The translations under genes and the position numbers were made by a program. A DNA stretch of 45,690 nucleotides from an uncultured Bacteroidales bacterium (GTDB lineage Bacteria; Bacteroidota; Bacteroidia; Bacteroidales; F082), in the NCBI GenBank assembly GCA_900318085.1, contig ONJF01000013.1, forward strand, positions 1 to 45,690. The letters are read 5' to 3'. The notes beneath the pieces are model-generated. The model was not told where the DNA came from. It saw only the letters and a list, made by a program, of their open reading frames with translations, and ran no database searches. This document shows, piece after piece, positions 1 to 10,534 of this stretch. Every line of letters starts with the position of its first letter. The first letter of the stretch is position 1.

Positions 1-2559
1 GACGGAACTGGGGATGACAATTGAGGTCAAGTTACAACTGCCAAATGCCGTTTGTCCAATGAAAATCACGGAATTTGGAATGGTTACCGAGGTCAAATTA
101 TGGCAACCCGAAAAAGCTCTATGCATGATGGAGATCACAGAGTTGGAGAAGGTCACCTGTGTCAGATTTCGGCAGTTGTAGAAAGCTTCATTATTAATCA
201 CCTCCAAGCCAGTGAAGTACTGCAACTCGTTGAAGGAAGTGATGCTGGTGTTTTGGTAGAACGCGCTATTTGTCTCCCCTTCAGGTATCAGGCTCGTCAC
301 CGCGGCGGCTTCGGCATAGCTCAACTCGCCGTCGCCGTTGGCGTCCCAGTTATCCACGCAGATGGCCTTCACGGCGGGGTCGACGAAGACGATATTGCCT
401 AAGTCGCATTGGATGTTGGTGAAGTTGCTCCAACCCGCTGCGGCTTGGTAGGCCGCCAACGAGCCGCATGGCACGTAGACGGGGATGCCAGTGGAGATAC
501 CATAAAAAGTATTGGTCTCCAACGAGGGCGGTGTAGCGGCCGGCACCGTCAGCGAGGTCAGGCTGGTGCAATCTTCGAACACAACGTTTCCGATGTAAGT
601 CACGGAATTGGGGAAGACAAACAATTCAAGGCTTGAGCAAAATCGGAACGCACCGCCTCCAATGATAGTCACGGAATTGGGAATCGCTATCGAGGTCAGG
701 CCGGTGCAGCCCCAAAAAGCCCCTATTCCAATCGCCTCGATATTATTGGGGATGACCGTGTTGATGCAGCCCGTCTTCAGTGTATTGGTGGCCGTCACGA
801 TGATAGCGTTGCAATTGTCGCGCGAGTCGTAAACGGTGTTGCCTGCTTCCACAACGATGTTCGCTAAGGCGGGGCAAGACATGAAGGGATTATCATGTAT
901 GTTGTGAACACTGCTTGGGATAATGATGGAAGTAAGGCTGGAGCAACCAGTGAAGGCATTGTTATAGATGGTACCAACACCGCTTGGGATGATGACGGAG
1001 GTGAGTTGTTCGCAAGAAAAAAACGCCTCGTCAAGGATATAACTCAATCCTGTGAAATACTGCAACTCATCGAACGAAGTGATGGAAGTTTCTCCGAACA
1101 CAGTCCCCAGTTCCGTCACCGCGGCGGCCTCGTCATAGCTCAGCTCGCCGTCGTGGTTGGTGTCCCAGTTGGCCACGCAGATGTTTTTCACCTGCGGGTC
1201 GGCGAATTCGATACTTGTCTGTGGTGCGGAGAAGTAATCGAAGGTGGTCTTGGGCAGGAATTGGTAGAAGCCTAGGCCTCGGGTTTCTTCATAGCCACCA
1301 ATGGCAACAGTGCTATTCTTGGAAACGCCGTACCATTTACTAGTAACATTATTACCACTGACCACTTGCTTGATGCCCACCTTCAAGTTGCCGCCCTGGT
1401 ATAGGTAGGGTAGCGAAAGAACGACTTCCATCTTGTTGTTAGCGACGCTGAGCGAGGCGTTTTCCAGCACTTTGGTCATTCCAGTCCAATCTAAGGTTGT
1501 GCTTCCGAATGAGGTTTCTTCCACCTCGGCTAGGTACACATCGAATCGGGCATCGCCCCAACTGACGTTCGTATTAAGAGCATAGAATGTCAGCTTCGTG
1601 ATGATGCTCTGTTGCATCGTCTGCAAGTCGGAGGCGGGGATGATGAACTGGCTTTTTGAATAGTGGTCGCAAAACCAGCCAAAGACAGGGATATAATTGT
1701 TGTCCTCAGGGCCGTTGTTCACAGTCAGTTGTTGCGGGCAACTTTCCACCAGGTTGGAAAAGCTGCTCCAGCCTGGGGCGTTTTGGTAGGCCTGCAACAA
1801 GCCGCACGGCACAAATACGGGAATCGTGGTCGGAACGTTATAGAACACGGTTGTGCCCAATGTGGGCGGCGTTTCGGGAAACGCCTTAATGGAAGTGAAG
1901 CCAGTGCAACGATAGAAAGCACCATTATCAATCGAGGTCACCCCCGTGCCGAGAGTCAACGACCCCGTGAAGCCAGTGCAGTCCTGAAAGGCAGTAGCAC
2001 CTATCGAAGTCACGGAATTCGGGATAATGAGCGAGCCCGTGAAGCCGCTGCAACTCCAAAAAGTAGAATTCTGAATCTCAGTCACAGAATCCGGTATGGT
2101 TAACGAACCAGAAAAATGTGTGCATCCATAGAAAGCACTCATACCAATCGAGGTTACGCCCGTGCCGAAGGTCAGCGAGCCATGGAAGCCAGAGCAACCT
2201 TGGAAAGCTAAATGGCCTATCGAAGTCACGGTATTGGGGATGGTCAGCGAACCCGTCAAACCGGAGCAATTGAAGAAAGCCTTATAACCAATCGCAGTCA
2301 CGGTGTAAGTAACCCCGTTATGTGTGACATAGGAAGGCAGTTCGATGTTCCCAGTGGGTTGGGTGTAGCCACTCCATGAACTTGATCCAGGACAAGTTAT
2401 CTCCACATAGTGGTTGGTGGCATCGGTGATGTTGTAGTACAGCGTCTGCCCTGTGGAGCATATCGCGGAAAAGTTGTAGGCATACGCCGTTCCCATCCCC
2501 AAGGATAGGGCAAGGAGGAGGGCGAGGACTCCTTTTCGAATTGATAAAACTCTTTTCAT
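1..2559 (-). CDS. BspA-like leucine-rich-repeat secreted protein (partial, runs off left edge)
   Basis: The frame is open from an ATG at 2559 to base 1 with no stop, giving 853 codons; the C-terminus is outside the window. Residues 1-26 are a signal peptide (basic MKR start, Leu-rich core, end near TAYA). Two blocks of BspA/LRR_5 repeats follow, of the type 'ALxGCxxLTSIxIPxSV', at about 85-225 and 480-690, with a third starting near 770. Residues about 235-430 form a beta-sandwich module resembling one in the two C25 peptidases. Two perfect EF-hand loops (DTNHDGELSYDE near 465, DANGDGELSYAE near 735) suggest calcium binding. The family is usually surface-exposed and adhesive; the T9SS tail expected at the C-terminus cannot be checked here. 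The gene lies directly downstream of a two-component pair and has its own promoter and palindrome. Family assignment is firm; ligand unknown. Confidence 0.93.
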   Translation of the reverse strand, partial: MKRVLSIRKGVLALLLALSLGMGTAYAYNFSAICSTGQTLYYNITDATNHYVEITCPGSSSWSGYTQPTGNIELPSYVTHNGVTYTVTAIGYKAFFNCSGLTGSLTIPNTVTSIGHLAFQGCSGFHGSLTFGTGVTSIGMSAFYGCTHFSGSLTIPDSVTEIQNSTFWSCSGFTGSLIIPNSVTSIGATAFQDCTGFTGSLTLGTGVTSIDNGAFYRCTGFTSIKAFPETPPTLGTTVFYNVPTTIPVFVPCGLLQAYQNAPGWSSFSNLVESCPQQLTVNNGPEDNNYIPVFGWFCDHYSKSQFIIPASDLQTMQQSIITKLTFYALNTNVSWGDARFDVYLAEVEETSFGSTTLDWTGMTKVLENASLSVANNKMEVVLSLPYLYQGGNLKVGIKQVVSGNNVTSKWYGVSKNSTVAIGGYEETRGLGFYQFLPKTTFDYFSAPQTSIEFADPQVKNICVANWDTNHDGELSYDEAAAVTELGTVFGETSITSFDELQYFTGLSYILDEAFFSCEQLTSVIIPSGVGTIYNNAFTGCSSLTSIIIPSSVHNIHDNPFMSCPALANIVVEAGNTVYDSRDNCNAIIVTATNTLKTGCINTVIPNNIEAIGIGAFWGCTGLTSIAIPNSVTIIGGGAFRFCSSLELFVFPNSVTYIGNVVFEDCTSLTSLTVPAATPPSLETNTFYGISTGIPVYVPCGSLAAYQAAAGWSNFTNIQCDLGNIVFVDPAVKAICVDNWDANGDGELSYAEAAAVTSLIPEGETNSAFYQNTSITSFNELQYFTGLEVINNEAFYNCRNLTQVTFSNSVISIMHRAFSGCHNLTSVTIPNSVIFIGQTAFGSCNLTSIVIPSSV

Positions 2560-2654: not shown

Positions 2655-2662
2655 CAAAAATA
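2655..2662 (-). promoter_or_regulatory. -7 promoter element of the LRR gene
   Basis: The minus strand reads TATTTTTG, matching the Bacteroidota -7 consensus TAnnTTTG. It would start a leader of about 90 nt that contains two short hairpins (about 2599-2613 and 2629-2644) before the ATG at 2559. No good -33 TTTG is seen. Instead a palindrome begins 22 bases upstream, as expected for an activator-dependent promoter. Confidence 0.6.
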
Positions 2663-2684
2663 TAAGGGATTATCGAAACGATTG

Positions 2685-2700
2685 TAAGTAAATTTACTTA
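2685..2700. promoter_or_regulatory. 16-bp palindromic operator upstream of the LRR gene
   Basis: TAAGTAAATTTACTTA is a perfect inverted repeat. The same 16 bases occur at 5386-5401 in front of the histidine kinase gene, and I saw no other copy in the window. The site is 22 bases upstream of the -7 element and 126 bases from the start codon. It is a probable binding site for a dimer of the neighbouring response regulator; that partner is inferred. Confidence 0.65.
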
Positions 2701-2716
2701 TTACGGCGAAAAACTA

Positions 2717-3346
2717 TCAGCTTTTTGCCACCAATCCGGCATCATAGGCGTATTTCACCAAATCTGCCGTGGTCTTGAGGTCGAGCTTTTCGAAGATATG
2801 GCTTTTGTGCACTTCCACCGTGCGACGGCTCAGACCAAGGTGGTCGGCAATCTGTTGGGCCGACATGCCGTTGGCGCACAACTGGATGATTTCTATCTCG
2901 CGTGTCGAAAGGTCGGCTTTTGCACTGATGCGATATTGTTTCTCTTCATCGTCACCATCGACGCCAAACAGGGCAGTGAGTTCTGCCTTCAGCGTTTCCG
3001 GATCCACATCCTTGCCCAAATACCCATCCACAAGACCTTGGGTATGCGTCACAACTGTTTTATTCTTGATTTCGCCAGAAAGCAGGACTATTTTGGCCTT
3101 GGGGTTGAGCGCCCGCGCATGATGGATCACATCAACGCCATTGCCGTCGGGCAGGAAGTAGTCGAGCAAGATCAGGTCCACCTCATCGGCATGTTGATCA
3201 AGATAGCTCTTGGCCGACTTCACGTCTTCGACCTCGGCTACGACGACGCTGTTCACACCCGAATAGTTGAGCGACAAGCGTGTGCCCACGCGATAAATCG
3301 GATGGTCCTCCACCAAAAGGATTCTTATAGGCTGTTGTTGGGTCAT
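2717..3346 (-). CDS. NarL/LuxR-type response regulator
   Basis: A 209-residue transcription factor. Residues 6-125 are a receiver domain with the acidic pair E13-D14, phosphoacceptor D62 in LILLDYFLPDGNG, S90 and K112. Residues about 143-205 are a GerE/LuxR helix-turn-helix ('LSTREIEIIQLCANGMSAQQIADHLGLSRRTVEVH' region). It lies 79 bases after the histidine kinase and is probably co-transcribed with it and phosphorylated by it. The intercistronic gap is almost entirely an 8-bp tandem repeat. The likely targets are the two identical palindromes at 2685 and 5386, which would give control of the LRR gene and autoregulation. All key receiver residues are present. Start is the ATG in MTQQQPIRIL. 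Confidence 0.95.
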   Translation of the reverse strand: MTQQQPIRILLVEDHPIYRVGTRLSLNYSGVNSVVVAEVEDVKSAKSYLDQHADEVDLILLDYFLPDGNGVDVIHHARALNPKAKIVLLSGEIKNKTVVTHTQGLVDGYLGKDVDPETLKAELTALFGVDGDDEEKQYRISAKADLSTREIEIIQLCANGMSAQQIADHLGLSRRTVEVHKSHIFEKLDLKTTADLVKYAYDAGLVAKS

Positions 3347-3365
3347 GGTAATTATTTGTTTGTTT

Positions 3366-3421
3366 GACTGCGAGACTGCGGGACTGCGAGACCGCGGGAC
3401 TGCGGGACTGCGGGGCTGCGG
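3366..3421. repeat. 8-bp tandem repeat (7 units) between kinase and regulator
   Basis: Seven consecutive octamers of consensus GACTGCGG (variants GACTGCGA, GACCGCGG, GGCTGCGG) fill 56 of the 79 bases between the kinase stop and the regulator start. It is non-coding and lies about 20-75 bases before the regulator ATG. Copy-number change could alter leader spacing or translation of the regulator; that role is inferred. Confidence 0.85.
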
Positions 3422-3425
3422 GATT

Positions 3426-5258
3426 TCATTTCTTAACGCTGAGTGTCACCATAGTTCCTTTTCCTTCTTCGCTTTCGATGGCTATGGTTCCGCCGTTGCG
3501 TTCCATCATCTGCTGGCTGACGAAGAGGCCGATGCCTGTGCCCGACTCACCGAAGGTGCCTTCGGTCGAAGCGGTCGTCATCTTCAGCAGTTTGTCTGGA
3601 TTTTCGATGCCTTTGCCGTGGTCAATCACCTTAATCAGGTAGCGCTCGCCACCGTCTTCGGCTTCCAGCCTGATTTCACCGTTGGCGAAAGAGTATTTCA
3701 CCGCATTCGAGAGGATGTTCTGCAACACCATCTCAATGATTTGTGGGTCGTCGTTGCCCATCCAATCCTTAGGTATGACATTGATGACCTTCAGTTGCTT
3801 CTGCTCGATTGCGAAGGCTTGGCTGTGCATCACCGTCTCGGCCAATTCGCACAAGTTGAAAGGCTCGGCTTGGCTCTCGTTGTCGCCCATCATGCCTTTC
3901 ACCCAACCGATGACATTGACGGTCTTGACCCTCAAATCCTGGGTTGACGACTTCAGTGAGATCAGATAATCCTCCAGGTCATCAAGTGGCATATCGTTGA
4001 TGTGCTTGCAGAGAATGTCGAGGATTTTCTCGTGCGACAGCAGCGGTGTCTTGATGTCGTGCGAGACCACGGTGAGCAGCTGGTCTTTGGTATTGTTGAG
4101 ACGGGTCAGCGTTTCGTTCTGCTTTTTTCGTTGTATGGCGTTGCGGGCCAGCACAATGACCAGGATGAGGAGCAAGGCGGCCACAAGCAGCGACAAGAAA
4201 AGCAGGCGACGGCTTTGTCGGGTTTTCTCTTCCTGCATTTCCAGTGCATGCTCTTTCTCTGACATTTGGTATCTCACTTGGTAGTCGCGAATCAAGGCTT
4301 GCTGGTCTTCGTTGTAGATGGAGTCCCTCATCTTGTTGCATTCCTCAAGATAGCCGATGGCGCGTTCCGGGTGCGAGGCCTTTGTGGCCAGATATGCCCC
4401 TTGCATGCACTCCAGGTAGAACTGGTTATACTGGTTTTCTTTCGCGATGTCCAAGGCTTGGAGGAAGAGTTGCTCCGAAGCCATGTCGTCGCCACGGTCG
4501 TGGGCATATTGGCCGTGGAGCATGATGATGGCGGTTTCGAAGTAGAGTTCCTTTTCGTGTTGTGCAATGACGAGTGCGGTGTCGAGTTGAGCATGGGCCT
4601 CGTCGAGGCGTCCTGCCGCCTGGTAGGCTCTCGACAAGGTGATGTGCCTGTTGATGAGCTTTTCCTGGTTGTCGCCATATTGTTGCGACAAGGCCAAGGC
4701 TTGTTCGGCAAAGCCGATGGCCTCGGCTTGGGTTTTGTCGTGCTGCGGGTCGTCGGCTGCCATCAGTCCAAGTTGCATCAACCGCACTCCCGAGAGGTTC
4801 TGGTAATAGGTGGCCAAGTCGAGGTTGGCTGTCGTTTCGGTACCCACGTCGCCCAGCATCTCGATACATTTCCAGTACATCTCCTCCGACTGGTCGTATT
4901 CCTCCATGTCGAAATAAATCGAAGCGATGTTGTTGATGACATACCGTTTGTTGACGGAGGCCATCTCACCTCCGATTTCATCCATGATTTCGGTACAGAG
5001 GGTGTAGTTGCGTATGGCTTCATCATATTGCCCCATGCGCATGTAGGCCCCTGCAATGGTGTTGTAGCATCCAGCCACATTGTATTTGTCGTCAGCCTGT
5101 TCATAGAGTTGCAACGCCTGCTTGCTGTAGTCGATCACCTCAACGAATCGGCTCTCGTTGAAGCATTGCAGTATCATGGCCCTAAGGCTGTCGGCGTCTT
5201 GTGCCTTCAGCCCTATGGCGAGGCAGGCAAGGATAATCGTGGAAAACAGTCTTTTCAT
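3426..5258 (-). CDS. TPR-containing sensor histidine kinase
   Basis: A 610-residue inner-membrane sensor kinase, counted from the ATG at 5258. A longer frame reaches 5294, but the MKRLFSTIILACLAIGLKAQ signal peptide begins at 5258. Residues 20-340 are a periplasmic array of tetratricopeptide repeats. A coiled segment and one membrane helix (about 352-372) follow. The dimerisation/phosphotransfer helix has H400 in SHDIKTPL, with Asp where Glu is usual. The ATPase domain has an N box near N514-N518, a G1 box DHGKGIE near 546 and a G2 box GTGIGL near 573. It should phosphorylate the response regulator encoded just downstream. The signal sensed is unknown; a TPR sensor suggests a protein or peptide partner. 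The promoter carries the same palindrome as the LRR gene. Confidence 0.95.
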   Translation of the reverse strand: MKRLFSTIILACLAIGLKAQDADSLRAMILQCFNESRFVEVIDYSKQALQLYEQADDKYNVAGCYNTIAGAYMRMGQYDEAIRNYTLCTEIMDEIGGEMASVNKRYVINNIASIYFDMEEYDQSEEMYWKCIEMLGDVGTETTANLDLATYYQNLSGVRLMQLGLMAADDPQHDKTQAEAIGFAEQALALSQQYGDNQEKLINRHITLSRAYQAAGRLDEAHAQLDTALVIAQHEKELYFETAIIMLHGQYAHDRGDDMASEQLFLQALDIAKENQYNQFYLECMQGAYLATKASHPERAIGYLEECNKMRDSIYNEDQQALIRDYQVRYQMSEKEHALEMQEEKTRQSRRLLFLSLLVAALLLILVIVLARNAIQRKKQNETLTRLNNTKDQLLTVVSHDIKTPLLSHEKILDILCKHINDMPLDDLEDYLISLKSSTQDLRVKTVNVIGWVKGMMGDNESQAEPFNLCELAETVMHSQAFAIEQKQLKVINVIPKDWMGNDDPQIIEMVLQNILSNAVKYSFANGEIRLEAEDGGERYLIKVIDHGKGIENPDKLLKMTTASTEGTFGESGTGIGLFVSQQMMERNGGTIAIESEEGKGTMVTLSVKK

Positions 5259-5355
5259 AACGTACTCTGTTTTATTTAAACAAATGGCAATCAATTAAAA
5301 GCATACTATTTTGCGTGAATTTGCAGTATTTCATAAACTTGCAATTTACGATATA

Positions 5356-5363
5356 CAAAATTA
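5356..5363 (-). promoter_or_regulatory. -7 promoter element of the kinase-regulator operon
   Basis: The minus strand reads TAATTTTG, fitting TAnnTTTG, about 98 bases upstream of the kinase ATG at 5258. Exactly 22 bases separate it from the upstream palindrome, the same spacing as at the LRR gene. Confidence 0.6.
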
Positions 5364-5384
5364 GTATAGACTTCGGAAATAGCT

Positions 5385-5402
5385 ATAAGTAAATTTACTT
5401 AT
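5385..5402. promoter_or_regulatory. Palindromic operator upstream of the kinase gene
   Basis: The sequence ATAAGTAAATTTACTTAT is an 18-bp perfect palindrome whose inner 16 bases are identical to the site at 2685-2700. It lies 128 bases from the kinase start, against 126 for the LRR gene. It probably mediates autoregulation by the response regulator (inference). Confidence 0.65.
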
Positions 5403-5618: not shown

Positions 5619-8600
5619 TTACTGCCTTCTATAGACGTAGCCATGTCCAGGCTGCAGTGTGGTGAGGTTGCCGCTCCAACCATTATTGTAGGTAGCTGTA
5701 TGGCCATCTTTGTCGGTAATGGTGTCACCATTAACAGGCGTGAAGCTACCCAAGGCAGTGGCGATATCGGCGGCCTGCGTGCCCGTGTAGCCGAACCAGT
5801 TGTAGCCGGGCATGATGGTCATGCTGACGCCTGTGGCGGGTGCTCCACTCAGGGTAAGGCTGACAGGAGTCGTGGTCTCGATCTTATACATCTGTCCGGG
5901 ATTGATCTCCGTCAGCGTGCCACTCCACTGGCCACCCTCATAGCGGGCAAAGCCAGCGTCCTGCGAGTTGATGAGGACAGCGTTGCCGCCGAGGGCCTCC
6001 TCAAGTTGCTCAAGCGTCATCGCCTTGGTGGGGGTCCACCAGTTGCAGCCGGCAGCCAAGGTGGGATAGACCTCGCCGTTGAGGCTGACGTTGGAGGTGA
6101 TGTCGCCCGTGGCGACAGACATGGTCTCGTTGTAGATGCCTTGGCCGAGGCCGCCCTTGAGGCGGACATAGACATTGGCGGCGAGCAGGTCGGTGGTCGG
6201 GGTGGGTGGCGTCACCGGCTCTTCGCCCTCCACGATGGTGACGTCGTCGATCTTAAGTATCCATTGGTCGTAGCAGTCGAAGTGGCGGATGGCGATGTAA
6301 CCCGTGCCGCTGTAGGCACTCAGATCGACGGTGAATTCTTGCCATTCACTACCTGAAGATGCATTGGGAGAATAAGTCCATGTCTGAACCGCAGTAAAGT
6401 CACCGACCGTGTTGTTGCCAGCCATCGAGACCATCACGGAGAATTTTTCTGCACAATAGCTGACATTCTGCACGCCAGCATGGAAGGTGATGCTGCCACC
6501 AAGGGTCACCTGGGGCGAGACAAGGTAGTTGTCGGGTGTGACGGCGGTGCCGCTGCCGCTCGTAGAACCGGAGATATAAGACTCGGAAAGCATGAACCCA
6601 TCACTACTGTTGTAACCATAGCCACTGCTAAAGTCATTGTTGGTGGTAGGATATTCCGTATTATGCATCCAACTATTTGGCGAAGTGGTGGTACCTTGGA
6701 AGGTCGTCCAGTTTTGCCAGCCATCCTCGAAGTCGTAGGTGAGCGTTTCGCGGTTGCCCCTACTGCTTGCTGTGAGGGTCAGAGAGGAACCATAGGTGCC
6801 GTTCTCCGTATCGCTGATCTCGAAGTCGGTCGGGGCAGTGACGGTGATGTCGCCTGTGAGGTTGGTGCCGATGACGGCAAGGTTCTTCACCGATGATGGA
6901 CCGAAGCCTTCGGCATAGGTAAAGTCGGCTAAAGTGTTGGGTGTGGCTATCAGAGTCTCACTGCTGCCAGGAACAGTCTTGGTAAAGATGACTTGGTTGT
7001 TGTAATTTGAACGTGAACCTGAACCTAAAGCCGAAGTATTCGCTGGACTGTAATTGGTGTTTCCTGCTTTGTATAGAGAAGTGTTGCTAGTAGTATAGTG
7101 GTAGAAATATAGTCTGTTCGAGTATGACAGAGCAGAATTGGTATTGTCATCTACTGTAAGCAACAAATTGCTGGTCCCGTTATAATCAAACGGAGTGTCT
7201 AACGTAATAGTAGTCCATCCAGAAGCTTCAAAAGTCACTGAACCTGAGAACACTTTATATGTTGAAGATTGCGAAACCCAATCAGAAGTGCTCGAGAAAG
7301 AGGCTTTCGTGGTGTGTGAAAGATAAATCTCAAGTGTTCTAGTTGTTGACTTGGAATTGGAAACCTTGAAAGCAACCTTTGTAATCGTCCCCGCTTCGCC
7401 CACTTCAGAGGCAGTGAAGATTTGTTGTGACACAGAGTACTTTTGGTATGTGTTTGTCGGTAGGTTGATATTGTTGTTTGTTCCGCTCCCAACAGTCACA
7501 TCCCCACCTTGAGGAGAACCGAAGAGACCGACAACGGTCACATCGTAGGCTGGTAAGGTGAACTGGTTGTTCGTCACTACGACGGTGGTGTTCACGTCGC
7601 CCGTCTTGAAGACGATCCAGGTGCTCAAGTAGTAGCCATCCTCGGGCGTGGCTGTCAAAACAACAACCGTTCCGGGAGCGCCTCCCGTTGTTGATGCCGT
7701 CACAGTGCCGTGCTCCACCTCGGCCACGGTGACAGTGCAGCCGCTGACGAAGGTGGCATTGATGGTGACATCGCTGTCGGGCATGGTGAACTGGTTGCCG
7801 GTCACCGTGATGCTGTTGTTGCTCGCATCCCTCACATCCCAAGCCGAGAAGAAGTATCCCGAAGCTGGGGTGGAACTCAAGGTGACGGTCTCGTTCTTGT
7901 AAGCTGTGGTCGGGTTAGCGCTGATGCTGCCGTTCTCGACGGGGTTGCAGGTCACGCTGTGGGCTTGCAAGGCCGTGAAATTGGCCGTGTATGAAGCGTT
8001 TTGCGTGACGGTAAAGGTATAAGTCGGGTTGGTGCTGACCACGTTGTTGCCCATCTTCCAGTTGGTGAAATCGTAATGGGTATTGGGGGTGGCCGTCAAG
8101 GTGCAGCTGGTGCCAGAATAGAAGGTCCCTCCCCCACTCACCGTGCCACCGGCTGTCGGGTTGGCCGACACCGAGATGGTGTATTGCGGGATGGCGGTGA
8201 AAGTAGCTGTGTAGGTGGCACTCTCCGTTACCTCGAAGGTGTAGGTGGCGTTGGTGCTGACCACGGTGTTACCTTTCTTCCAGTTAGTAAAGGTGTAGCC
8301 TGTGTTTGGCGTCGCCGTCAAGGTGCAACTCATGCCCGAGTAGTAGGTGCCAGCGCCACTCACATTGCCTCCGTTGCTCGGACTGGCCGTTGCGGCGATG
8401 GTATAAGGCGTGCCACCATTGACGGTAATGGTACCGAGATAAGTCACCTTGTTATATCCAAACACACAAAGTGTGAGCTCTTGGTTAGCCGTCAAAGTGC
8501 CATTGATGCTGATGTTGGCCGTGGTGCCGCTCACGGTGGCCTTGCCCAAGATGTTGTGATCCGCGTCGGTGATGGTAGCCACTGCCCCACTGCCGTTGTT

Positions 8601-10469
8601 GACAGTGACGGCATATGAGGTGGCCCCTGGGGTGATGCTGCCCGTGTGGGTGACCGTCATGGCTTGCGGGGTCTTGGTGCGGAGCATTAAGGTGGGGTCG
8701 CCGTAGAGGATCCAGGCTTGATAGGTGCCCACTGCTTGTTGTTCCGAAGTGCTGTAGTGGTCGAAGATACCCATCAGACCGTTGATGGAAGTACCGCCCC
8801 ACGTGTGCTTGATGTTGCTGCTATAGCTCTCCACGAGGATGTCGACGCATTCGTCCTGAGCCCACATGGGCGGAATCCAAGGTTGGCTAATGTATGACAT
8901 CAAGGTGCCTATAGCACCCGTAGGATTGCTACCGTTGGTAGCATTCATCCAAGCCTCGGCGAAGCAGTCGCTGCTGTGGTCGTATTTACCGACGAGGCAA
9001 GCCACCGACCAGATGAAAGGCAACTTGTTGTCATTGGTCAAGGCGTTAACATGGCTATTAGCGTAATAAATATAACCAGAGGTGTTAGCGCCCCAAGCCG
9101 TCTCCTGTCCATGGTTGGCATAGTTGATGATACCCACGCCGCTGTTGATGTCCGAAGAGATGGTGGCGGATGAACCATCATATCCCGAAAGATTGGCATA
9201 ACGCTGATAAACAGTTGTATAGCCATAATTTAACAAATCCGTACGAATGTTGTTAATATGCTGGTAGTCGTCTTCGTTGTTATGCCCAGAGCCGCCTTCC
9301 TTTCTCGAGATACCTTCACCTATCTGAAGCCATGACGCGGAAGTGGTAAGGTCGCGCTCGTAGGTGATGACACGTTGCACTTGCGTGCTTACGCGTGAAG
9401 CACTGCTAGCGGAGAAACGGCCGATGAAAACATCGTTGTAGATATCGCTACCCACAATCTGGCCGTAGGCGTTGTCACCAAGACCACTGTAAGATGAGCC
9501 ACCGCCCGAATAGGAATAACCCGGGATCTGCGCCACATCACCGACGAGCAGCACATGGGTCAGGTTGTTGTTGGCGTTGTATTGGCTCTGAATAAAGCTC
9601 TTGATGGCCGAGTAGGTGCTGCCAGCGGTGCTGATGCCCACGATGGTGGTGTTCACGCCGCGGGTCTTCTTCCAGTTGACGAAGTCGGTCATCGAGCTGA
9701 TGAAGTTGTCGTAGCAGATGATGAGCAGGTCGCCTTCCTCATCGAGGGGCGTGTAACGGTTCATCGCGGCTTCGTAGTTGATGAAGTGGCGCTGGTAGAC
9801 GCTCTTGAAGTCAGGGTCCATCTTGACAACGTTGCTACGACGGCTCTCGATGGTGTTGCTGCCGTGGTCGTCCACCTTGTACATCTCCACCGTCATGTTG
9901 TAGTACACGCGGAGGGTCTTAGTGGCAGGGTTGTAGGCAAAGGGATAGACCACCATGTTCTGGCCACGGAAGTCGCGGATGATATAAGGTTCATAAAGGC
10001 CTATGTTGCTGGCTGGGAAGAACGCATCCTCGCTATAGCATGTGCCGTATGTGTAAGGCACATCCTCGGGGTTGATGGTACGGGGGAAATCGCCCTTCGA
10101 AGGGGCCACCTCGATGCCTTCGAAGTCACGATACTGGGCATCGATGACGCGGATGCTCATGCGGGCCTTGTCGCCGATGAGGACAGGGATACCCGTCATG
10201 GGCATGTCGGGTTCACCGGCATGGGCGGTGCTGACGGCCTTGGGCAGGGTGACGACTTGCGCCTCACCTCTCGGCGTGGTGACGGAGGCGGTATAAAAAC
10301 CAGGCACCTGCACGTTGACTTGTATGCTGTTTTCGGAGCTGCTGATGAGCTGGGTGCGGTAGGTTTCGGGCTGACCGCCCAGGATATTGTGCCATTGGGG
10401 CGCGGCTTGCTGGGCGAAGAGGCTCAGGCCGACGGCCAGAAGGAGGCTAAGGATGATGCTTTTCTTCAT
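5619..10469 (-). CDS. Secreted gingipain-like C25 cysteine peptidase (first copy)
   Basis: A 1616-residue secreted protease; start chosen at MKKSIILSLL (10469) because it begins the signal peptide, 13 codons inside a longer frame. A pro-region (about 20-235) precedes the C25 catalytic domain (about 240-620), with catalytic H453 in NYANHGQ and C491 in SVACLVGKYD, and a 'LYGDPTLMLR' close. Next come an Ig-like part, two InlB-type repeats, two 'HSVTC/GCTVTVAEVEHG' repeats, a beta-sandwich module, and a cleaved-adhesin domain (TYDFEDGWQNW to ILKIDDVTI). The C-terminus is the two-repeat GxNWW module shared with four neighbours. Its tail stops at GYVYRRQ, about nine residues short of the sister copy. 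The gene is last in the operon and ends at a strong terminator. Gingipain-type specificity (Arg or Lys) cannot be told from sequence. Confidence 0.95.
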   Translation of the reverse strand: MKKSIILSLLLAVGLSLFAQQAAPQWHNILGGQPETYRTQLISSSENSIQVNVQVPGFYTASVTTPRGEAQVVTLPKAVSTAHAGEPDMPMTGIPVLIGDKARMSIRVIDAQYRDFEGIEVAPSKGDFPRTINPEDVPYTYGTCYSEDAFFPASNIGLYEPYIIRDFRGQNMVVYPFAYNPATKTLRVYYNMTVEMYKVDDHGSNTIESRRSNVVKMDPDFKSVYQRHFINYEAAMNRYTPLDEEGDLLIICYDNFISSMTDFVNWKKTRGVNTTIVGISTAGSTYSAIKSFIQSQYNANNNLTHVLLVGDVAQIPGYSYSGGGSSYSGLGDNAYGQIVGSDIYNDVFIGRFSASSASRVSTQVQRVITYERDLTTSASWLQIGEGISRKEGGSGHNNEDDYQHINNIRTDLLNYGYTTVYQRYANLSGYDGSSATISSDINSGVGIINYANHGQETAWGANTSGYIYYANSHVNALTNDNKLPFIWSVACLVGKYDHSSDCFAEAWMNATNGSNPTGAIGTLMSYISQPWIPPMWAQDECVDILVESYSSNIKHTWGGTSINGLMGIFDHYSTSEQQAVGTYQAWILYGDPTLMLRTKTPQAMTVTHTGSITPGATSYAVTVNNGSGAVATITDADHNILGKATVSGTTANISINGTLTANQELTLCVFGYNKVTYLGTITVNGGTPYTIAATASPSNGGNVSGAGTYYSGMSCTLTATPNTGYTFTNWKKGNTVVSTNATYTFEVTESATYTATFTAIPQYTISVSANPTAGGTVSGGGTFYSGTSCTLTATPNTHYDFTNWKMGNNVVSTNPTYTFTVTQNASYTANFTALQAHSVTCNPVENGSISANPTTAYKNETVTLSSTPASGYFFSAWDVRDASNNSITVTGNQFTMPDSDVTINATFVSGCTVTVAEVEHGTVTASTTGGAPGTVVVLTATPEDGYYLSTWIVFKTGDVNTTVVVTNNQFTLPAYDVTVVGLFGSPQGGDVTVGSGTNNNINLPTNTYQKYSVSQQIFTASEVGEAGTITKVAFKVSNSKSTTRTLEIYLSHTTKASFSSTSDWVSQSSTYKVFSGSVTFEASGWTTITLDTPFDYNGTSNLLLTVDDNTNSALSYSNRLYFYHYTTSNTSLYKAGNTNYSPANTSALGSGSRSNYNNQVIFTKTVPGSSETLIATPNTLADFTYAEGFGPSSVKNLAVIGTNLTGDITVTAPTDFEISDTENGTYGSSLTLTASSRGNRETLTYDFEDGWQNWTTFQGTTTSPNSWMHNTEYPTTNNDFSSGYGYNSSDGFMLSESYISGSTSGSGTAVTPDNYLVSPQVTLGGSITFHAGVQNVSYCAEKFSVMVSMAGNNTVGDFTAVQTWTYSPNASSGSEWQEFTVDLSAYSGTGYIAIRHFDCYDQWILKIDDVTIVEGEEPVTPPTPTTDLLAANVYVRLKGGLGQGIYNETMSVATGDITSNVSLNGEVYPTLAAGCNWWTPTKAMTLEQLEEALGGNAVLINSQDAGFARYEGGQWSGTLTEINPGQMYKIETTTPVSLTLSGAPATGVSMTIMPGYNWFGYTGTQAADIATALGSFTPVNGDTITDKDGHTATYNNGWSGNLTTLQPGHGYVYRRQ
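5622..8410 (-). repeat. Long intragenic duplication, copy 1 (3' half of C25 gene)
   Basis: This stretch and 10599-13415 encode nearly the same domains in the same order (InlB repeats, HSVTC repeats, sandwich, cleaved adhesin, GxNWW module), with long runs of near-identical nucleotides, for example around 7900 and 12930. The N-terminal catalytic halves are much more diverged, so the 3' halves have been homogenised or shuffled more recently. Confidence 0.8.
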
Positions 10470-10534
10470 GATCAGATGTGTCTTTAGTTCTTGGTTTATT
10501 GTTGACATTTGTTATTTCACCCTGACCGCTGACC

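Follow-up and report, generated by a model that had tools for sequence, protein, structure and literature searches.

A palindrome at fixed distance from the -7 element in a FimS/FimR-like two-component locus of an uncultured Bacteroidales bacterium

The locus and its two palindromes

The window analyzed here is a 45,690-nucleotide stretch of the genome of an uncultured Bacteroidales bacterium of the F082 lineage (GenBank assembly GCA_900318085.1, contig ONJF01000013.1, positions 1 to 45,690). Near its start lie the genes for a TPR-sensor histidine kinase, a NarL/FixJ-type response regulator and a secreted leucine-rich repeat (LRR) protein, and one 16-bp palindrome, TAAGTAAATTTACTTA, stands ahead of both the kinase gene and the LRR gene (Table 1). 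Our analyses suggest that, in these ruminant-gut-related bacteria, the sensor and regulator very probably switch on their own genes and those of surface proteins through this one palindrome, which is held at a fixed distance from the -7 element. In sister sensor systems this distance seems to be kept, while the palindromes differ.

Table 1. Features of the window at the two-component locus
Feature	Position	Strand	Remarks
BspA-type LRR secreted protein gene (LRR_5)	1..2559	-	Truncated by the contig end
TATTTTTG, sigma-A -7 element of the LRR promoter	2655..2662	-	Palindrome 22 nt upstream
Predicted operator of the LRR promoter, 16-bp 7-2-7 palindrome TAAGTAAATTTACTTA	2685..2700	-	Exact match
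NarL/FixJ-type response regulator gene	2717..3346	-	209 aa, Response_reg + GerE; predicted palindrome binder
TPR-sensor histidine kinase gene	3426..5258	-	610 aa, FimS-like
TAATTTTG, -7 element of the kinase promoter	5356..5363	-	Palindrome 22 nt upstream
Predicted operator of the kinase-regulator operon (autoregulation), second exact TAAGTAAATTTACTTA	5386..5401	-

The regulator matches Response_reg (4.6e-17) and GerE (1.2e-18), both over the Pfam cut-offs, and belongs to the NarL/FixJ family by this domain content; its residues D62 and K112 are invariant across 14 aligned sequences. The best NCBIfam match of the kinase is HK_Porph_FimS (NF053520, an equivalog model; 207.2 bits, E 3.5e-61), with a score below the 600-bit cut-off, so that the protein is not assigned to the FimS equivalog. 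The arrangement of a TPR_12 and HATPase_c kinase adjoining a GerE regulator is nevertheless FimS/FimR-like. When named genomes were searched for the regulator, 11 loci were recovered, seven of them at 74-97% identity and all seven in metagenome-assembled genomes of Bacteroidales, whose sources include goat abomasum, water buffalo abomasum and red deer samples. A full-length relative of the truncated LRR protein, in the genome G064, has 2721 aa.

As the first-pass annotation of this DNA had stated, the 16-mer occurs exactly twice in the window, once ahead of each gene, and no further match was found there at up to three mismatches. Its chance expectation in the window is 0.06, and two copies arose in none of 100 shuffles. 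At both copies exactly 22 bases on the minus strand separate the palindrome from a TAnnTTTG element. Because TAnnTTTG occurs 32 times on the two strands of the window, only ~3.5e-4 per position, an identical offset found twice is hard to obtain by chance, as had been argued, and a window scan for perfect 7-2-7 palindromes at spacings of 5-60 before TAnnTTTG gave four matches, two of them at 22. The distance to the start codon had been put at 126-128 bases and requires correction: by our own count it is 125 (LRR) and 127 (kinase) to the ATG. Neither promoter has a good -33 element, in that the 26 nt ahead of each -7 element contain neither TTG nor TTTG. In Bacteroides fragilis promoters the second box is a TTTG near -33 (PMC7366714).

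One copy of the palindrome sits 16 bases past the stop codon of the regulator gene, as might an RNA hairpin that serves as terminator or 3' stabilizer of the regulator mRNA. That explanation is scarcely credible: the palindrome is A+T-rich, the other copy lies upstream of the kinase gene with no regulator before it, and both copies stand upstream of a -7 element at a fixed distance. We rejected it on composition and position.

The site across the genome and the genus

A search of the whole 3.24-Mb genome found the motif to be rare and nonrandom, with three exact copies and two more at two mismatches (one match in the control). The 22-nt spacing to TAnnTTTG is present at all three exact copies and at one of the two-mismatch copies (C81:104916); the other (C81:27002) was not among the matches to the composite of palindrome, N22 and TAnnTTTG. 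At up to three mismatches this composite gave eight rows and none in the control; the rows represent seven sites, the eighth being the third exact copy read on the opposite strand. With the half-sites relaxed to TARGTAA..TTACYTA (TARGTAANNTTACYTA-N22-TANNTTTG), the genome holds six perfect sites, two in the window, two on contig C81 and one each on C30 and C65, and the control, the pattern read backwards, gave one match at up to three mismatches.

The genes that follow the seven sites encode the LRR protein, the kinase, a lipoprotein-like protein with DUF6935 and four proteins with a type IX secretion system (T9SS) tail. Specifically, the third exact copy (C81:100281), 22 nt ahead of TAATTTTG, is 102 nt from the ATG of a gene whose 930-aa product carries InlB B-repeats and a T9SS tail, and the second relaxed site on C81 precedes a 1450-aa T9SS-tailed relative of that protein. 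The C30 site precedes the lipoprotein-like protein (285 aa), and the seventh site, on C44 with two mismatches, a 721-aa T9SS-tailed protein. Downstream of the C65 site a 1370-aa T9SS-tailed gene starts at ~350 nt, as read from the coordinates; the automatic gene rule had chosen a 91-aa open reading frame (ORF) in its place. Por_Secre_tail was matched in these four genes (C81 twice, C65, C44) and in a gene of the paralogous system D described below, and not in the full-length G064 relative of the LRR protein, the window copy being truncated, or in the lipoprotein-like protein. Fimbrial families had no match among the genes after the seven sites, and we do not class the system as one that controls fimbriae. 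The closed circuit from TPR sensor to surface LRR protein that had been proposed is too narrow, as T9SS-tailed and lipoprotein-like genes elsewhere also carry the site.

Among 99 genomes of the genus, the composite (up to two mismatches) is present in 15, and its control in none. Nine of the 99 encode the regulator at E<=1e-60, and G064 is a tenth holder, with a fragment of 41 residues (93% identity) at the edge of a contig, beside its LRR site. The motif at the 22-nt geometry was found in 10/10 holders versus 5/89 other genomes (Fisher 1.9e-10); the genomes are related, so this and the other Fisher values given here overstate independence.

All nine loci that encode a full regulator retain the site ahead of the kinase gene, with one mismatch in G052 and as TAGGTAATATTACTTA in G033, and a second site lies 3' of the regulator in 8/9. 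In an alignment of the nine kinase promoters, invariant columns make up 12/16 of the palindrome, 6/8 of the -7 element, 4/22 of the spacer and 7/159 of the remainder. Conservation before the LRR gene is likewise complete, at five of the five full-regulator loci that have such a gene 3' of the regulator. The gene at the second site carries LRR_5 repeats in G000, G018, G052, G053 and G083, an InlB B-repeat in G076, and no Pfam match in the available part in G027 and G088; the last three genes have, by our own reading, signal-peptide-like starts. With LRR genes at five loci and other genes at three, the promoter therefore stays while the cargo changes, and the surface LRR partner of the first-pass annotation is one such cargo, replaced by a different surface gene in other species. 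In G033 the second site is found on a separate contig and precedes the gene for a different, secreted-looking protein.

Identical sites might also be copies of a repeat element, such as a repetitive extragenic palindromic (REP) sequence or a miniature inverted-repeat transposable element (MITE), or the outcome of a recent promoter duplication. Two sites of G053 (C39, C51) are identical through the spacer and the -7 element, and promoter-plus-gene duplication therefore probably happens in that genome. The two window sites are poorly alike, with flanks identical at 31/100 and 27/100 positions and the spacer at 9/22, and are therefore not a copied segment; moreover, a repeat element would sit poorly with just three exact copies in the genome. 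For the window we regard this origin as extremely improbable and rejected it on flank identity. In G053 (L039, L041, L033) a total of three sites precede genes with like N-termini, one of which was tested for LRR_5, and G052 (L021, L032) has two LRR_5 genes; judging by these sequences, it seems that LRR genes and this promoter multiplied jointly in both genomes.

Sister systems with the same spacing

The genome that contains the window, whose own system we call A, encodes at least four further TPR-kinase/NarL pairs (B, C, D and E), with TPR and HATPase_c in all four kinases. Some of these paralogous systems repeat the layout of palindrome, 22 nt and TAnnTTTG with half-sites GGAGTTTTCTCC, TGGGTGTTTACACCCA or TRGGTAA..TTACCYA. 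In system D, 22 nt separate the perfect palindrome TGGGTGTTTACACCCA from TATTTTTG, and a T9SS-tailed gene, the kinase and the regulator follow. This motif is present in 2/99 genomes, once in each and both times ~4 kb from the D regulator, which was sought in eight genomes only. System C has AGGAGTTTTCTCCT at the 22-nt spacing before a secreted gene 3' of its regulator, and no such layout was found at the operons of systems B and E in the scans made. Over 400 kb of the same genome (C44, C52 and part of C65, the first two chosen in the knowledge that they hold paralogue systems), a single perfect 7-2-7 palindrome precedes TAnnTTTG at a spacing between 5 and 60; the spacing is 22, and the site is that of system D. 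At 6-of-7 pairs the same scan gave 41 matches and no peak at 22.

The C1 pattern was found in 24/99 genomes and its controls in seven; the matches in G001, G044, G061 and G097 look like chance, and G018 and G031 also have the pattern without the C regulator. A match to this regulator (E<=1e-50) is present in 31 genomes, and the pattern in 18/31 of these versus 6/68 others (p 4e-7). At a 61% identity line the association becomes 18/18 (p 5e-15), a line that was drawn post hoc, falls where the helix classes divide and includes the fragments of G068. The 3' flanks of 28 regulator-C loci, taken to ~1.5 kb, separate by recognition helix: a C1 site is present in 12/17 loci with an ENM or ENL helix versus 0/11 with ENH (p 2e-4), and a TRGGTAA..TTACCYA-type (C2) site, at up to two mismatches, in 6/11 ENH versus 0/17 ENM/ENL loci (p 1e-3), the C2 consensus having been chosen after some members had been seen. 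Half-site types thus match helix classes here, and the sequences suggest that the one follows the other. When spacings of 8-39 were allowed in these flanks, C1 sites were at 22 (12) and 20 (5), and C2 sites at 22 (6) and 8 (1). In a wider scan of the 3' flanks of 45 regulator loci (46 had been given, of which G077C has no recognized helix-turn-helix; G057 and G070 are each counted twice), all seven strict matches (7/7 pairs, perfect -7 element) were at 22, six of them belonging to system A. The looser spacing histogram has 12 matches at 22, five at 20 and one each at 12, 17 and 38. We judged the peak at 20 to be an overlapping reading of TATATTTTT.

System B bears on the ownership of the TAGGTAA sites. 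G057 and G070 have a site with an imperfect -7 element directly 3' of B, and a relaxed-motif site is present in 4/7 B holders versus 19/92 others (p 0.049), or, among genomes without regulator A, in 4/7 versus 9/82 (p 0.008); paralogue B is thereby weakly supported as the owner. The recognition helix of regulator A reads SRRTVEVHKSHIF or SRRTVEVHKSHVF at 8/9 loci and that of B SARTVESHKNKIF at 3/7. G033 is the sole A orthologue with a V-to-A change in the helix and the sole one with a TAGG half-site at the kinase promoter, a pairing that is suggestive only. The B regulator of the genome under study (L077 16890-17459, C44) lacks ~22 receiver residues that are present in its G054, G057 and G021 relatives, with the helix-turn-helix intact.

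Predicted mechanism and its relatives

The first-pass annotation proposed that the NarL-type regulator directly activates both window promoters. The rarity, conservation and co-occurrence of the site favor this proposal, and direct binding is what we infer from them: the conserved operator is very probably bound by the local regulator itself. In the model that we think likely, a FimS/FimR-like two-component system has a NarL-type regulator that binds the 7-2-7 site near -42.5 and activates its own operon together with surface-protein genes. The membrane-bound TPR sensor kinase would phosphorylate the regulator encoded directly downstream, and a regulator dimer would bind the inverted repeat through its half-sites TAAGTAA/TTACTTA. 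Positioned at about -42.5, in place of the -33 box, the dimer would recruit sigma-A polymerase (class II activation) to promoters that offer only the TAnnTTTG -7 element. The same operator would drive the kinase-regulator operon, giving positive autoregulation, as well as the neighboring LRR gene and, at other loci, the genes for two or more T9SS-tailed surface proteins, and some sister systems in the genus would use identical spacing with their own half-sites. What the TPR domain of the sensor reads may be a polypeptide, in line with a proposal made for FimS (PMC11053733).

The promoter position in this model follows from the spacing. TAnnTTTG spans -12 to -5 for Flavobacterium sigma-A (PMC9723704); if that numbering applies, the palindrome occupies -50 to -35 with its center at -42.5. 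Operators of class II activators are centered near -41.5 and overlap a poor -35/-33 box; the window promoters have no -33 box. NarL sites share the 16-bp 7-2-7 layout (PMC9314961, PMC2718512), and a single NarL site at -44.5 suffices at the Escherichia coli ogt1052 promoter (PMC9314961); on these grounds we propose that a phosphorylated dimer brings about class II activation. Binding of Porphyromonas gingivalis FimR showed no difference with or without acetyl phosphate (PMC1974823), and phosphorylation may therefore not be what sets regulator binding here.

At its predicted location, from -50 to -35, the operator could also serve to occlude polymerase, and the regulator could bind as a repressor that covers the -33 region of its own and the other promoters (negative autoregulation). 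We regard repression as quite unlikely. Because the promoters lack a -33 element, an activator is suggested to be needed, and the spacing is invariant, whereas repressors tolerate spacing shifts. In addition, FimR of P. gingivalis activates (PMC1974823).

In addition to the relatedness of the genomes and the choices made post hoc, several observations weigh against the activator model and its extension to the sister systems. Sites were not found upstream of the B, C and E kinases, although for E only a short stretch was scanned; none was found 3' of the regulator at 5/17 C1 and 5/11 C2 loci, or at any of the seven B loci in the 3' scan. At the second sites of system A, two of eight have an imperfect -7 element (TTATTTTG in G076, TAGTTTTA in G088), and before the kinase the distance from palindrome to ATG varies, from 48 nt (G088) to 273 nt (G018). 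In G018, the closest relative (regulator 97% identical), the kinase (L064 2179-4010) is split into two overlapping ORFs, through a frameshift or an assembly error. Moreover, the motif is present without a detected regulator orthologue in G019, G021, G054, G057 and G095; three of these have a paralogue of 47-48% identity and one a paralogue of 42%, and G019, which is 98% complete, has no regulator relative at E<=1e-12. The relaxed motif (up to one mismatch) is found in 13 genomes without the regulator (controls 2/99). Given these two sets of genomes, related regulators may share the motif.

The same genomes favor ownership of the palindrome by another DNA-binding protein, be it a NarL-type paralogue or a one-component repressor, with the cognate regulator gene just a target: 5/15 motif genomes have no orthologue, and four of the 13 with TARGTAA..TTACYTA and no regulator have paralogue B. 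We hold such an owner to be improbable, though deserving of a place in the argument, since the site marks the cognate kinase promoter at every full-regulator locus and the 3' side of the regulator at all but one, and systems C and D have their own palindromes at the 22-nt spacing beside their own genes.

The search beyond the genus also weighs against a general form of the activator model. Thirty FimS-like loci from the order gave no spacing peak at 22, with 0 strict matches at 22 and three at other spacings, and at 6-of-7 pairs 40 matches, one of them at 22 (L175), which may be chance. The claim for the geometry is therefore kept within the genus. The L175 site (4322, in G338) belongs to a distant FimS-like locus; its TTCGTAATTTTACGTA is followed after 22 nt by TATCTTTG and resembles the A/B motif. 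FimS-like kinases (NF053520, E<=1e-60) were found in at least 119/393 genomes of the order, with three candidates scored per listed genome, and constitute a large, mostly unnamed family. Among the candidates scored none in the 393 genomes reached the 600-bit FimS cut-off, and no P. gingivalis fimS locus was thus obtained in which to look for FimR targets.

The nearest known system is FimS-FimR of P. gingivalis, which likewise pairs a TPR periplasmic sensor kinase with a regulator that binds and activates promoters of surface-structure genes (PMC1974823, PMC11053733). It differs in that the window kinase reaches 207 of the 600 bits required for FimS and in that the genes after the sites here encode LRR and T9SS-tailed proteins, not fimbriae. 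FimR binding to mfa1 was reported without a named motif, and the accessible text of that paper (PMC1974823) names no operator and does not contain the terms palindrom, inverted repeat, footprint or motif. E. coli NarL, the best relative of the regulator in the PDB (1a04), shares its domain layout and the 16-bp inverted repeat, in which 2 bp separate two 7-mers, and is unlike it in half-site sequence, sensor type, targets and polymerase, which here is Bacteroidota sigma-A with TAnnTTTG. RcsB/VraR-type proteins are NarL-family regulators found among the PDB matches of the regulator, and the RcsB box TAAGA..TCTTA resembles the window half-sites; regulators of this type have other signals and sites. 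In the open literature searched, we found no paper containing the 16-mer, no structure of a NarL activation complex and, mainly in titles and abstracts, no account of an operator for a NarL-type regulator of the TPR-kinase kind in Bacteroidota. The system is of a known kind, FimS/FimR-like and NarL-type, and the most notable point beyond that is that several sister systems share its promoter geometry while their palindromes differ.

These results give a FimS/FimR-like system a precise operator and geometry that are open to test and define a candidate surface-protein regulon in uncultured bacteria. They also provide a natural set of paralogues in which helix and half-site covary at constant geometry, a resource for studying how two-component circuits remain insulated once they have been duplicated. 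A tentative extension, to which we give somewhat less than even odds, is that the genus carries insulated surface-display modules, each comprising a TPR kinase, a NarL-type regulator, an interchangeable surface gene and a promoter of invariant geometry. Such modules would have been made by duplication and codivergence of helix and half-site, with the recognition code preventing cross-talk and the surface genes being swapped.

Two further features of the window were noted. The gap between the regulator and kinase genes (3361-3425) contains short, tandem-like 'gactgcggg' units, as seen by eye. Upstream of the kinase promoter, a gene on the minus strand (5619-10508) encodes a gingipain-like C25 peptidase (Peptidase_C25, Propeptide_C25, Cleaved_Adhesin), the last ~60 residues of which resemble, again by eye, the C-terminus of the 2721-aa G064 LRR protein (L195). 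Neither protein matched Por_Secre_tail or had a Pfam match at this end, and the similar C-termini may therefore represent another sorting or anchoring signal.

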